Assembly: GCA_030037705.1 (NCBI GenBank)
Contig: JASHQE010000290.1
Span: 1-59,419 of the forward strand
Source: Acidobacteriaceae bacterium
GTDB taxonomy: Bacteria > Acidobacteriota > Terriglobia > Terriglobales > Acidobacteriaceae
Length of the DNA: 59,419 bases
Direction: 5' to 3'
The notes under the pieces are model-generated. The model did no database searches and was not told the origin of the DNA. It was given only the letters and a program-made list of their open reading frames with translations. Every line of letters begins with the position of its first letter. Position 1 is the stretch's first letter. This document shows, piece after piece, positions 16,400 to 44,786 of this stretch. The position numbers and the translations under genes are program-made.

Positions 16400-17260
16400 C
16401 TACTCTCGCCGGAAGCGGTTGGCTTGATCGAACTCATTGCGCAACACCGGCGTGCGCAGATTTTCGCGCAGGTGTGCAAGCCGCTGCTCCAATGCATGGA
16501 GAGCCTGCTCGATCAGCTCGGTGTTGGTGTGCGCAATATCCCGCCACATGGAATAGGGACTGGCGCCCAGCCGCGTCATCTCGCGCAGGGCGCGGCCGCC
16601 CACGTCTTTTAACTCCGGCGCTTCGCCAACCTCTTCTTCGAGCAGTGCGCTCAAAGCCGTGGCGACAAACTGCGGCAGATGACTGACCCAGGCCACGAGC
16701 TGATCGTGGCGGACAGGATCGAGATCGAGAATCCGCGAGCCCATGGCCAAAATCCACTGGCGCCACGACTGGACGAGCGCCATGGCACGATCGGAGCGCC
16801 GCGCCGCCGGATCGTCCGTGAAGAGCCACACGGCGCCGCGAAACAGGTTGGCGTCACCCAGCTCCGCGCCGCCGCGTTCCTTGCCGGCCATGGGATGGCC
16901 GGGGAGAAATGCAGGACGGTTGGGCTTGTTGTAAAGGCACGCTGCCGACTCGGCGATGAGCCGCTTGGTGCTGCCCACGTCAGTGACAAGATGGTCCGGC
17001 CCCAGCGCGCCCGATAACTGCGCCATAAAATCGAGCGTTGCGTAGATGGGCATGGAGAGCAGCACTACTTCACTCTCTTGCGCGGCCTGAACGGCGTCTT
17101 CCGCGACCGAAGTGAGCGCGCCCATGGCGAGCGCATGATGCGCCTGGTCGGAAGTGCGGTTCCAGCCGACGATCTGGCCGTGAAACCCGGCTGCGCGGAG
17201 CGCCAGGCCCGCCGATGTGCCCAGCAGGCCCGTGCCCAGGATAGCAATGCGTTCGATCAT
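16400..17260 (-). CDS. tyrA: Prephenate dehydrogenase
   Basis: This 286-residue NAD(P)-dependent enzyme oxidatively decarboxylates prephenate to 4-hydroxyphenylpyruvate in tyrosine synthesis. It has an N-terminal Rossmann motif (ILGTGLLGTSAG), LLSMPIYATLDF, the conserved DVGSTK and the catalytic-region GHPMAGKE. The C-terminal half is the helical dimerisation domain (VSHLPQFVATALS). The chosen ATG at 17260 starts MIERIAILG. It is the last gene of the minus-strand aromatic cluster, separated from DAHP synthase by about 510 bases that hold the four-helix-bundle gene and its inverted repeats. Confidence 0.95.
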   Translation of the reverse strand: MIERIAILGTGLLGTSAGLALRAAGFHGQIVGWNRTSDQAHHALAMGALTSVAEDAVQAAQESEVVLLSMPIYATLDFMAQLSGALGPDHLVTDVGSTKRLIAESAACLYNKPNRPAFLPGHPMAGKERGGAELGDANLFRGAVWLFTDDPAARRSDRAMALVQSWRQWILAMGSRILDLDPVRHDQLVAWVSHLPQFVATALSALLEEEVGEAPELKDVGGRALREMTRLGASPYSMWRDIAHTNTELIEQALHALEQRLAHLRENLRTPVLRNEFDQANRFRRE

Positions 17261-17262
17261 AA

Positions 17263-17300
17263 TTAGCAAGCCAGCTAGTTAGCGAGTCAGCAAGTCAGCG
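17263..17300. repeat. Octamer-repeat arm, left of the four-helix-bundle gene
   Basis: 38 bases built of degenerate 8-base units (consensus AGCAAGTC/AGCGAGTT) begin two bases upstream of the tyrA start. This arm is inverted relative to 17731-17767, with 28 of 38 positions matching. The same units form the gene-less palindrome at 44191-44275. Confidence 0.85.
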
Positions 17301-17310
17301 TAAAGCACAA

Positions 17311-17718
17311 TTATGCGATCTGTAATGTCCCCACAAGTCCGTTGATGAGACGGGCCACTTCTTCGCATTGCTCCATCAACGCTGCCATATTCTTTGGTTC
17401 AAGTAAATTTAGATTACCAGCGAGTTCGAGCTGAGTCTGCAATTCAAAGAGCGAGCCGCGGGCAACCGCCAGAAATTGTCTGAAATGACCGTCATTTAAC
17501 CTGCCATGCCCCTCCGCGATATTACTTGGAACTGCAACTGCAGCTCGGCGCATCTGAGATTGAAGACCATACATTTCGGTCTTCGGCAGCCCTTCAGTGA
17601 TTTGGTAGACTGCCTTGGCCAGGTTCATAGCTTTTTGCCAAACGATCAACTCCCGGTAATGACGAGTTCTCTTGCGAGCTTCGGTTTCGCCATCTGTTTT
17701 CCAATCCTTATCTTTCAT
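17311..17718 (-). CDS. Four-helix-bundle protein (23S rRNA IVP/Avd-like)
   Basis: This 135-residue protein belongs to the four-helix-bundle family first described from 23S rRNA intervening sequences and structurally related to the Avd accessory protein of diversity-generating retroelements. Diagnostic stretches are YRELIVWQKAMNLAKAVYQ, the LPKTEMYGLQSQMRRAAVAV segment and SNIAEGHGR. The middle and end are amphipathic helices. Family members bind nucleic acid in the characterised Avd case; no enzymatic activity is expected. The gene sits between DAHP synthase and tyrA on their strand, enclosed by inverted octamer repeats, so it looks inserted into the operon. No rRNA or reverse transcriptase is nearby. 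Confidence 0.92.
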   Translation of the reverse strand: MKDKDWKTDGETEARKRTRHYRELIVWQKAMNLAKAVYQITEGLPKTEMYGLQSQMRRAAVAVPSNIAEGHGRLNDGHFRQFLAVARGSLFELQTQLELAGNLNLLEPKNMAALMEQCEEVARLINGLVGTLQIA

Positions 17719-17730
17719 GCGCCGAATTCT

Positions 17731-17767
17731 CGCTGACCGGCTAACTCGCTGACTTGCTGACCCGCTC
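17731..17767. repeat. Octamer-repeat arm, right of the four-helix-bundle gene
   Basis: This is the inverted partner of 17263-17300, made of units GCTGACCG, GCTAACTC, GCTGACTT and GCTGACCC. It ends about five bases from the stop codon of DAHP synthase. Its reverse complement matches part of the palindrome at 44191-44275 in 26 of 27 positions. Confidence 0.85.
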
Positions 17768-17771
17768 CATC

Positions 17772-18788
17772 TTACAGCGTTCTTCCCACTGCTTGAGCGA
17801 TCCCGCGCAGCTCGGCGGTGAGCTTGGCGAAATCTTCCAGATACAGGGTCTGCGCCGCGTCCGAAACAGACTTGTCGGCATTGGGATGGATCTCGATGAG
17901 CAGCGCGTCGGCGCCTGCGGCCACGGCAGCCTTAGCCATGGGGCCAACCATGTCGCGCCGGCCGGTACCGTGCGAAGGATCAGCAACCACCGGCAGGTGC
18001 GAGAGCTTCTTGAGCACCGGGATGGCCGAGATATCCATCGTGTTGCGCGTAGAAGTTTCATACGTGCGGATGCCGCGTTCGCACAGGATCACGTCGTAGT
18101 TGCCGCCTGAAAGGATGTACTCGCTCGAAAGCAATAGTTCCTCAAGTGTGGCCGCGATGCCGCGCTTGAGCAGCACCGGCTTGCGCACCTGGCCCAGTTC
18201 GCGCAGCAGATTGAAATTCTGCATGTTGCGCGCACCCACCTGGAAGCAGTCCACGTAAGGCAGCATCGGCTCGATCTGCGCGATCTCCATCACTTCGCTC
18301 ACGGTGGCGAGGCCATTTGCCGCCGCGGCTTCGCGCATCAGCTTGAGGCCGGGGATGCCGAGGCCCTGAAACGAGTAAGGCGAACTGCGCGGTTTGAAGG
18401 CGCCGCCGCGCAGGAATTTCCCCCCCGCGGCTTTTACGGATGCGGCGATGGCAAAGATCTGATCGTGGTCTTCGATCGCGCAGGGGCCGGCGATCATGGC
18501 TACCTGCTCGCCGCCGATTATCGCTCCATTGGGAAATTCGATCGTGGTTCCATGCGGACGGAAGGCACGGCCGGCCAGTTTGTAGGGCGAGCTGATGCGG
18601 TGCACATTCAGCACGCCGGGCAGCACCTCAAATTTGCTCAGGTCGAGACCGGCCGTCGGTCCGACGGCGGCAAGGATGGTCTGCATCGCGCCGGTGGTGC
18701 GATGCACGTTGACTCCGGACTCGAGCATCACGTCGATGACGGCGTCGATCTGTTCTTCTGTGGCATTCTCCTGCATGGCGACAATCAT
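17772..18788 (-). CDS. aroF: 3-deoxy-7-phosphoheptulonate (DAHP) synthase
   Basis: This 338-residue enzyme condenses phosphoenolpyruvate with erythrose 4-phosphate, the first step of the shikimate pathway. It is of the short AroA-beta type (Thermotoga/Bacillus style). An N-terminal ferredoxin-like regulatory domain (about residues 1-70) precedes the barrel. The barrel has MIAGPCAIE, the FKPRSSPYSFQG signature, LLKRGIAATLEE and VADPSHGTGRRD. Its ATG overlaps the stop of the chorismate mutase gene by four bases, implying translational coupling. The fused N-terminal domain suggests feedback control by an aromatic end product, as known for the family. Confidence 0.95.
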   Translation of the reverse strand: MIVAMQENATEEQIDAVIDVMLESGVNVHRTTGAMQTILAAVGPTAGLDLSKFEVLPGVLNVHRISSPYKLAGRAFRPHGTTIEFPNGAIIGGEQVAMIAGPCAIEDHDQIFAIAASVKAAGGKFLRGGAFKPRSSPYSFQGLGIPGLKLMREAAAANGLATVSEVMEIAQIEPMLPYVDCFQVGARNMQNFNLLRELGQVRKPVLLKRGIAATLEELLLSSEYILSGGNYDVILCERGIRTYETSTRNTMDISAIPVLKKLSHLPVVADPSHGTGRRDMVGPMAKAAVAAGADALLIEIHPNADKSVSDAAQTLYLEDFAKLTAELRGIAQAVGRTL

Positions 18789-42191: not shown

Positions 42192-44189
42192 ATGACTTCC
42201 AGCGTTGCATCTCTTTCTCTCGATCAGCTCTCCATCGACACGCTGCGGCTGCTCGCCGTCGACACAGTCGAAAAGGCAAAGAGCGGACACCCCGGCGCTC
42301 CGCTTGGATGCGCTCCTATCGCCTATCTGCTCTTTCACAAGCTGATGAAGCACAGCCCATCGCATTTCAAGTGGGCCGACCGTGACCGGTTTGTGCTTTC
42401 AAACGGACATGCCTCGGCGCTGCTCTACGGATCGCTCTACCTGTCCGGCTATAAGCTGACGCTCGACGACCTGAAGAGCTTCCGCCAGTGGCACTCGAAG
42501 ACCCCGGGGCATCCCGAGTCGGGCGATACCGAGGGCGTCGAGGTGACCACCGGTCCGCTCGGTCAGGGCATCGGCATGGCCGTGGGTATGGCGATCGCGG
42601 AGAAACATCTCGCCGCCGTCTACAACAAGCCGGGCTTCGAGATCGTGAACCACTATACGTACGCGCTCTGCGGCGACGGCGACCTGATGGAAGGCGTCTC
42701 GCATGAGGCTGCCGCGCTGGCCGGCAAACTGGCCCTCGGCAAGTTGATCTTCCTCTACGATGACAATCTGATTTCGCTGGACGGCCCGACCGAACTCAGT
42801 TACGGCGACAATTACCTGGAGCGCTTCGAAGCCTATCACTGGCATGTGCAGCGCGTAGCCGACGGCAATGACCTCAACGCGATCGAAGCGGCCATTGAAG
42901 CGGCCAAGGCCGAGACCTCGAAACCGTCATTCATCGCAGTGCGTACAGTCATTGGTTACGGCAGCCCGCGCGCAGGCACCAATAAAGTGCATGGCGAGGC
43001 GATGGGTGCGGCCGACGTGGCGGCGACGAAGAAGTTCTTCGGATTCCCCGAGGACCAAAGCTTCTACGTCCCGGATGACGCGCTGGCCAACTGGCGCAAG
43101 GCCGTCGATCGTGGAAAAGAGTATGAGGCCGAGTGGAATAAGCTTTTCGCCGGCTACAAAGCAGCATTTCCGGAACTGGCTGCGGAGTTCGAACGCACCC
43201 AGGCAGGCAGGCTGAAGGCCGGTTGGGAGAAGACCATTCCGAGCTTCCCGGCCGGCAAGCCGGTGGCCACGCGCAACGCCGGCGGCGCGGTGATGAATGC
43301 CATTGCCGAAAGCGTGCCGGAGCTATTGGGTGGCGCGGCTGATCTGACTGCTTCCACCAAGACCCTCTTCAAGCCCGGCGCGAATTTCCACTTGGACCCC
43401 ACCGGGCGGAACGTCTACTTCGGCGTGCGCGAGTTCGGCATGTGCGCTGCGGTGAATGGCATGGCGGCCCACGGCGGATTGATCCCCTTCGGGTCAACGT
43501 TCTTTACCTTTTCCGACTATTGCAAGCCGGCGATTCGACTGGCCGCACTCATGAAGAGCCACTCGCTGTTCATCTTCACGCACGACTCCATCGGTCTGGG
43601 CGAGGATGGCCCGACCCACCAGCCTGTTGAGCACCTGATGATGCTGCGGGCCGTTCCCGATCTCACCGACTTCCGGCCGGCGGACGCAAACGAAACCGCC
43701 GCTGTGTGGCGGCTGGCGCTCGAACGCAAGAGCCCGAGCTTTATGGCGCTCACCCGCCAGGATCTGCCGGTGATCGACCCCACAAGGCAGGATGCGTACG
43801 CCAACGTGAGCAAGGGAGCCTACGTGCTCGAAGACGTCGAGAACCCGCAGATCGTGCTCATCGGCACCGGCTCCGAGGTATGGCCGGCGGTAGAAGCGGC
43901 AAAGCTGCTTGCGGCGGAAGGAATTCGCGCGCGCGTCGTGAGCTTCCCAAGCTGGAGAATCTTCGAAGAGCAGACGGCATCGTACAAAGCCAGCGTGCTC
44001 CCGGCTGGCGTGCCCAAGCTGGCGGTGGAAGCCGGTGCCACGCTGGGATGGTGGAAGTATGTCGGCACGAACGGCGGCGTCGTTGGCCTCGACCGCTTCG
44101 GCGCCTCGGCGCCGGGACCGGTTGTGCTCAAGGAACTGGGGTTCAGTGCGGAGAATGTGGCTGCTAAGGCAAAGGCGTTGGTGAAGTAG
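42192..44189 (+). CDS. tkt: Transketolase
   Basis: This 665-residue thiamine-diphosphate enzyme transfers two-carbon units between sugar phosphates. It shows [16 protein letters not shown] near residue 35, the ThDP/metal site [31 protein letters not shown], and in the second domain TFFTFSDYC and [19 protein letters not shown]. It is full length. It lies 55 bases after the glucoamylase gene and opens the run tkt-rpiB-HAD-gnd-zwf. A 32-bp palindrome follows its stop codon immediately. Confidence 0.97.
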
Positions 44190-44190
44190 C

Positions 44191-44275
44191 AAGTTAGCAA
44201 GTTAGCGGGTCAGCAAGTCAGCCAACAACTTATACGCTAACTCGCTAACTTGCTGACCCGCTAACTTGCTAACTT
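44191..44275. repeat. Gene-less octamer-repeat palindrome
   Basis: 44191-44222 pairs with 44244-44275 in 31 of 32 positions, with a 21-base loop. Both arms are built of 8-base units (AGCAAGTT, AGCGGGTC). Units and order match the arms that flank the four-helix-bundle gene at 17263-17767. It lies between tkt and rpiB and could also act as a transcript hairpin. Confidence 0.9.
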
Positions 44276-44303: not shown

Positions 44304-44786
44304 ATGAAACTCGTCATCAGCGCCGATCACGCGGGATTCGCTCTCAAGGAAGATGTGCGCGCCTATCTCGAAAAAAAAGGCCATGAGGTCGTCGATCTGG
44401 GCGCGTACGACGGTGATCATCCAGACGACTATCCCGACTTCGCCGAAAAAGTAGGCGATGCGATTCGCAAAGGCATTGCCAAGCGTGGAATTCTGATCTG
44501 CGGTTCAGGCGTGGGCGTCTGTGTAGCGGCCAATAAGATTCCCGGCATTCGCGCGGGCATGTGTCACGACACCTATTCGGCGCATCAAGGCGTGGAGCAT
44601 GATGACATGAACGTGATCGTGCTGGGCGCGCGCATCGTCGCCTCGGCGCTGGCATATGAGCTGGTGGATTCGTTCATCGGGGCCAAGTTTGTCGCCAATG
44701 AGGAGCGGTTTCAACGGCGGTTCAAAAAGGTGCTCGCCATCGAGGCCAAGTACCAGTGCGGAGATGGTCCAGCAAGTCCGGCGTAG
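44304..44786 (+). CDS. rpiB: Ribose-5-phosphate isomerase B
   Basis: This 160-residue enzyme interconverts ribose 5-phosphate and ribulose 5-phosphate. It has the N-terminal ISADHAGFALKEDV, the catalytic Cys in LICGSGVGVCVAANK and the His pair in HDTYSAHQGVEHDDMN. It is typical in length with a short tail. It is the second gene of the pentose phosphate group. A gap of about 290 bases to the HAD gene contains palindrome copy C. Confidence 0.96.
   Translation: MKLVISADHAGFALKEDVRAYLEKKGHEVVDLGAYDGDHPDDYPDFAEKVGDAIRKGIAKRGILICGSGVGVCVAANKIPGIRAGMCHDTYSAHQGVEHDDMNVIVLGARIVASALAYELVDSFIGAKFVANEERFQRRFKKVLAIEAKYQCGDGPASPA

Follow-up and report, generated by a model that had tools for sequence, protein, structure and literature searches.

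An IVP-family gene enclosed by inverted octamer arms in an acidobacterial aroF-tyrA junction, a candidate transposase-less mobile unit

The insert between the DAHP synthase and tyrA genes

The window, a stretch of 59,419 nucleotides from the genome of an Acidobacteriaceae bacterium (G000), contains a minus-strand gene for a 135-aa protein (17311–17718), situated between a DAHP synthase gene upstream (17772–18788) and a tyrA-type gene for prephenate dehydrogenase downstream (16400–17260). Both neighbours lie on the same strand, and their names are presumed, following the original prediction and general knowledge. As that prediction held, the protein belongs to the IVP family of four-helix-bundle proteins, matching PF05635 (23S_rRNA_IVP; E 9.8e-39, 132.3 bits, cut-off 33.8) and TIGR02436 (four helix bundle protein; 123.2 bits, cut-off 24). 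The proposed likeness to Avd is borne out as a weak similarity (bAvd 27.4 bits, NF033474 28.8 bits), but both scores fall below the respective cut-offs of 40 and 80. The window protein has no Y1/HUH transposase domain (its Pfam matches are 23S_rRNA_IVP and a weak bAvd only), and no enzymatic domain is recognised in it by Pfam or NCBIfam. IVP proteins are basic (median pI 9.0 in 99 sequences), and solved structures exist for the family (2gsc and 2rld).

The gene is enclosed by two arms built of degenerate octamers of the AGCRAGTY type, one on the tyrA side, downstream of the gene (17265–17300), and its inverted copy on the DAHP synthase side, upstream of the gene (17731–17766). Each arm is 36 nt long; the two are 78% complementary, rising to 95% over a stretch of 20 nt, and the pair scores 20, a value reached by none of 5000 Markov-1 shuffles (maximum 17.5). 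The whole insert comprises 511 nt on the minus strand, from the tyrA start to the DAHP synthase stop (17261–17771), and is filled by the unit as predicted. One arm ends 5 nt from the DAHP synthase stop codon (17772–17774, minus strand), the distance originally given, and the other starts 4 nt, rather than two, from the tyrA ATG (complement of 17258–17260). No transposase lies between the arms, where the IVP gene alone has a known family, and no Rfam match was found in the window, the insert occupying the aroF-tyrA gap and not a 23S rRNA helix. In the predicted RNA fold, the arms close a single long stem round the entire insert (−189 kcal/mol; z −5.2 against 100 shuffles), which would span from just past the DAHP synthase stop codon to just ahead of the tyrA start codon.

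The same octamers recur elsewhere in the window as a gene-less hairpin (44188–44270), with arms at 44188–44219 and 44239–44270 and a 19-nt loop. Its fold has 28 uninterrupted base pairs (z −9.6), and it fills the gap between the stop at 44189 of one gene and the start at 44304 of another, which we take to be of the transketolase and rpiB types, respectively.

Inverted arms and their words at IVP genes

A PF05635 match was present in 44 of 60 genomes, comprising relatives and the source genome itself. From these, 111 loci with 113 gene hits were fetched, weaker and fragmentary matches being left out, and 110 IVP loci were scored after three hits with short flanks had been dropped. Inverted flanks with a score of at least 18 occur at 84 of the 110 loci, compared with 6% when flanks are paired across loci and 1.8% of 606 shifted windows from the same loci; the remaining 26 include eight that score below 11. 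Among other genes in 379 kb of the relative G008, 6 of 317 reach 18, and none of the 89 that encode 90–200 aa does so, figures that stay unchanged when gene ends are allowed to move by 30 or 60 nt. None of 30 ParE genes from the same genus, bounded by homology in the same manner as the IVP genes, reaches even 16. Given the G008 and ParE controls, most IVP genes are armed and few other genes are, so that arms are not equally common next to unrelated genes. The four IVP genes within the 379 kb score 16.5, 26, 26.5 and 23 with homology-based ends (three at least 18), and 16.5, 12.5, 23.5 and 12.5 with mechanical ORF ends (one at least 18), where ORFs were truncated, extended across an arm or displaced by a longer ORF that overlapped them. 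Repeats so common that chance alone would place them around any intergenic gene might be suspected from the 95 arrays in this part of G008, but the rarity of arms at its other genes and at ParE genes, set against their frequency at IVP loci, makes such an explanation vanishingly improbable. At one locus (L143), the IVP gene is flanked on both sides by long GCGCAAA/GCGCAGA arrays that are directly repeated, not inverted (direct score 123, inverted 13).

When named genomes were scanned with an alignment of ten sequences, at least 573 loci were confirmed, and the best 80 of them cover about 15 phyla by record title. After four with short flanks had been dropped, 54 of 76 scored at least 16 and 45 at least 18; at the former threshold the controls gave 5.1% (cross-paired) and 3.2% (shifted). 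Among the 76, loci armed at 16 or above amount to 26 of 36 in Bacteroidota, 7 of 8 in acidobacteria and 0 of 3 in Verrucomicrobiota, and none of the 80 matches an rRNA model. Ten of 30 matching plasmid records were read, mostly cyanobacterial and one from Gemmatirosa; nine of their ten loci have arms scoring at least 15, and two of these nine lie in regions that are homologous between a pair of plasmids from the same strain. PF05635 was found in none of 14 named control genomes, so that the family is not universal, and 19 genomes picked for holding a match contain 2–11 of them each. In Flavobacterium, 31 of 199 genomes matched, and the best identity outside the query's own genome was 80%, which argues against very recent copies there.

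The arms consist of short tandem words. At 96 loci with an arm score of at least 14, some of whose arms are only weakly periodic, the best period is identical in both arms in 84 cases, being 7 in 55, 8 in 24, 9 in four and 6 in one. The word varies between units and matches between the two arms of one unit. Polarity is likewise regular: at 79 of 90 loci, and at 45 of 48 sites, the strand in which AG exceeds CT lies upstream of the IVP gene. Word class, assigned by simple motif counts that leave 33 of 110 rows unlabelled, was set against a quickly built tree of the 110 IVP proteins, in which 13 of 107 inner branches are starred. Over the 77 labelled rows it changes 13 times, against 35–49 times in 500 shuffles; agreement between protein and word was measured here by such changes on the IVP tree, not by comparing two trees. 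Clustering of the 113 loci by site gave at least 57 site clusters. With one row per site (41 labelled rows), 10–12 changes were counted, compared with minima of 15–17 and means near 20 in 200 shuffles, and the link between word and protein is therefore not only a matter of inheritance at the same site. Protein lineages tend to have their own word, and the AGCRAGTY octamer is only one word among many.

Insertion sites and repeats without the gene

Of 37 genomes with a tyrA match, 31 gave a locus in which the aroF-tyrA junction could be inspected and the others had no locus; four of the 31 have no adjoining DAHP synthase gene, which leaves 27. Three junctions hold the gene, each time with arms (508–692 nt), and 11 are empty, having 14–27 nt only. 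Comparing occupied and empty junctions, as was originally suggested, thus bears out a discrete insert of gene and arms without a transposase. A further six contain inverted oligomer arms and no gene, with scores of 14–18 that were reached by 0–10 of 1000 shuffles (the shuffle test covered eight gene-less junctions; L214 was not scored). The other seven have different spacers, including L195 and L203, with arm scores not above chance. Since the three occupied copies form one clade in the IVP tree, one insertion with later loss would suffice at this site. A search for remnants of the IVP gene in 13 gene-less junction loci gave a single hit, in L213, which is weak (E 0.005 for the best of 99 queries), falls at locus positions 1032–1178, outside the gap, and was taken as chance.

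Similar units were also compared across different sites. Over a stretch of 423 nt that starts and ends in the arms, the units at L104 and L123 are 81.6% alike; by the site-clustering test, the proteins that flank them are not homologues. For L307 (Desulfobacteraceae) and L333 (Desulfatiglandales), the likeness is 87.8% and covers the gene and the arm edge, the contig of L333 ending within its right flank. The Calothrix loci L177 and L178 were considered as a transposed pair and rejected, as they are homologous plasmid regions. No same-species pair of empty and occupied sites was found among the loci compared, and no target-site duplication was readable by eye, the junction spacers of relatives being too diverged.

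Many of the units are found within operons or gene clusters; examples are pheS-pheT, sucC-sucD and atpA-atpG, names presumed here from protein motifs. The first two sites are orthologous across many species (18 and 9 loci, respectively), and the source genome has an IVP gene at each of them. Its second copy (G000:C210:9499–9870; L002/L070) lies in pheS-pheT with octamer arms, and its third (G000:C93:22107–22434; L003) lies in sucC-sucD, split over two frames, with AGCT-word repeats beside it. On plasmids, IVP copies occur within cas and ribonucleotide reductase gene clusters; annotated arrangements among L181, L183 and L185 are cas6-IVP-cas4 in Anabaena sp. 90 and Pseudanabaena galeata, and cas10/cmr2-IVP-cmr3 in Picosynechococcus sp. 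PCC 7003. In an Anaerolineaceae locus (L296:1956–2132), a 6S RNA gene was observed about 100 nt behind the IVP gene.

Such recurrent sites raise the question of whether the gene is mobile at all. It might instead be an old, vertically inherited operon gene with arms that serve as stems for processing or regulation, their likeness being maintained by slippage and by conversion between arms. The orthologous sites agree with this, as do the stable predicted stem and the averages over six sites, where own arm pairs score 23.1 and swapped pairs 18.6; in pheS-pheT, the own partner is the best match in only 2 of 18 cases. Immobility is nevertheless very unlikely in view of the spread of 113 loci over at least 57 site clusters, the empty aroF-tyrA junctions, the several copies per genome and the plasmid copies.

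Repeats of the same kind are frequent without the gene. The source genome has 95 matches to a 19-nt octamer pattern at up to two mismatches, and none to the reversed pattern, and its octamer arrays are mostly without an IVP gene. In 33 scanned regions, short hairpins (loops of 13–48 nt) and single arrays prevail, and the only gene-holding convergent octamer pair within 1 kb holds an IVP gene. The 379 kb of G008 contain 95 tandem arrays, and a de novo scan there gave 17 inverted array pairs within 1.5 kb. Two of the pairs, belonging to one unit, enclose an IVP gene; the rest are short hairpins or surround different genes, and the scan missed three of the four IVP genes present. The idea that paired arrays mark IVP genes was accordingly dropped for G008, as most pairs there enclose something else or nothing. 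Arms thus accompany most IVP genes in relatives but are not exclusive to them.

The abundance of arrays was also related to the IVP genes of each genome. Across 36 genomes, GGGACTRA matches are more numerous where an IVP gene of that class is present (p 2e-4), as are octamer matches where an octamer-class gene is present (p 0.015), and AGCT-word matches show no significant relation to AGCT-class genes (p 0.059); these counts include the units' own arms and ignore kinship, and class membership per genome was entered by hand. The failure of the AGCT class means that a dependence of every word class on a resident IVP gene was not upheld. Furthermore, genome G035 has 39 AGCT-word matches and no IVP match. 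From these results it follows that solo arrays may outlive a resident unit, or may not need one. The highest count in 40 genomes of the genus was 172 GGGACTRA matches in G014, the next highest being 52.

One explanation of the gene-less repeats is that oligomer hairpins are independent dispersed repeats, into whose loops the IVP gene alone enters. The short-looped hairpins of the source genome, the six gene-less armed aroF-tyrA junctions, the arrays in genomes without an IVP match and the array pairs around other genes are all in keeping with it. This is still rather unlikely, as words at different sites track the IVP phylogeny, and as the homology between L104 and L123, which lie at different places, spans from arm to arm.

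A mobile unit and its likeness to known systems

The insert in the window is probably one example of a small mobile element, termed here the IVP unit, in which a gene of the IVP/S23p family and its cognate inverted arms are organised like a RAYT-REP pair. Such a reading is based on the observed architecture, the specificity of arms for this family across phyla, the match of words within a unit, the co-phylogeny of word and protein, and the occupied and empty sites. The unit would comprise a basic, non-enzymatic four-helix-bundle protein and arms of a short tandem word with a period of 6–9, usually 7, and protein and word would move jointly into new gaps between genes; roughly half of these gaps separate codirectional genes, and in them the unit mostly has the sense orientation.

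Three steps may be involved. Firstly, the IVP protein would recognise its own word in the arms, either as DNA or as RNA, recognition being the simplest reason for the co-phylogeny, as it is for RAYT and REP. Secondly, a putative cutting and joining enzyme, supplied in trans by the host or by another element, would copy or move the unit, and likewise arm pairs without a gene. RAYT proteins are thought to copy or move REPs and serve as the model for this step. Thirdly, in an operon transcript, the arms could form a long stem that RNase III might cut, by analogy with the intervening sequences (IVSs) of 23S rRNA, so that the insert would be removed and the neighbours spared. A stem of the RNase III type would perhaps explain why units are tolerated inside operons.

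The enzyme acting in trans might be thought to be a reverse transcriptase, with the Avd-like protein in its service and the RNA stem-loop as template. The weak similarity to the two Avd models points in this direction, together with orientation at 54 sites, where the neighbours are both sense relative to the IVP gene at 24, both antisense at 5, convergent at 16 and divergent at 9 (neighbour strands are undetermined for 8 of the 113 loci). Retro-mobility of this kind is nonetheless highly improbable. RVT_1 matches occur in 20 of 44 IVP-positive and 6 of 16 IVP-negative genomes, and are absent from G009 and G032, two genomes rated 100% complete that have five and three IVP matches. A reverse transcriptase as required partner was rejected for this lack of association; none lies beside the window gene, and the only RVT_1 match of the source genome is on another contig (C191). 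Avd of diversity-generating retroelements is homologous to PF05635 in sequence and structure, according to the part of the source available (PMC10053308). Unlike that Avd, the window protein stays far below the model cut-offs given above and has no adjacent reverse transcriptase.

The closest known setting of the protein family is the 23S rRNA IVS. In Coxiella, Leptospira and others, the IVS holds an S23p/IVP ORF, described in the available sections of the source as without known function; the Coxiella IVS has complementary ends that form a 28 bp stem, excision by RNase III has been obtained in vitro, and an older proposal of a mobile IVS is cited there (PMC4990558). The IVP protein family and the armed S23p ORF inside 23S rRNA are thus known already. 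The units described here resemble the IVS, as far as it is portrayed in those sections, in having the same protein family within complementary ends predicted to fold into one stem. They differ in lying between protein genes rather than in rRNA, in being present several times per genome, and in arms of tandem words that differ between protein lineages.

The second parallel is the RAYT-REP system. Excerpts from a study of these elements place rayt genes between two inverted REPs, with lone REPs dispersed in the genome, and report RAYT and REP trees of the same topology in Stenotrophomonas; RAYTs are tyrosine transposases of the IS200/IS605 type, and REPs are palindromic with a GT(A/G)G head (PMC2817692). 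With this system, so far as those excerpts describe it, the IVP units share a gene between inverted repeats, lone dispersed repeats and an agreement of protein and repeat, here by word class. In contrast, the IVP protein has no recognised enzymatic domain, and the arms are tandem words of 6–9 nt. The IVP unit consequently matches no known kind in full, having neither the RAYT-REP enzyme nor the location in rRNA that marks the IVS, although a stricter reader could regard it as a variant of either.

Short tandem repeats resembling the arms have been described repeatedly, and cyanobacterial STRRs are among these heptamer repeats. Extracts from two reports describe TAACTGA heptamers in Beggiatoaceae, cyanobacteria and Bacteroidetes with no transfer mechanism evident (PMC4679880), and GGGAATC heptamers in Xanthomonas with 70 and 75 convergent inverted pairs and generally no association with insertion sequences (PMC4692102). 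The arrays found here are similarly intergenic, and convergent inverted pairs are shared with Xanthomonas as depicted in those extracts. The terms "23S", "intervening" and "four helix" are absent from the main texts of both reports, and no IVP-type source gene is named in the portions accessible (PMC4679880; PMC4692102). No paper linking IVP genes to heptamer repeats was found by title or abstract in the full-text literature, a body that excludes bioRxiv and many subscription papers. Within the reach of these searches, there is no description of units that lie outside rRNA and have lineage-specific words.

The IVP unit may also be a source of dispersed heptamer repeats. A broader reading, which is plausible enough to propose but on balance somewhat doubtful, is that IVP units form a pan-bacterial class of transposase-less mobile elements whose protein spreads its own word. 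The heptamer and octamer tandem repeats that are dispersed in acidobacteria, cyanobacteria, Bacteroidota and other groups would then be footprints of these units, and the 23S IVSs would be units that have landed in rRNA loops. Two puzzles would be joined in this way, namely the function of S23p/IVP genes and the transfer of short heptamer repeats. If protein lineages carry their own word, recognition between protein and word is directly testable. If the mobile reading is true, DNA would be spreading without a recognised transposase or recombinase in the unit, and would be living inside operons by means of RNA removal.

Some arms have further structure. At pheS-pheT (L002, L042, L044, L045, L055 and L058), they often include an extra small palindrome, of type GTCCGCC...GGCGGAC or type GCGCTTCGCGC, which gives the impression of another, REP-like element nested in the arms.
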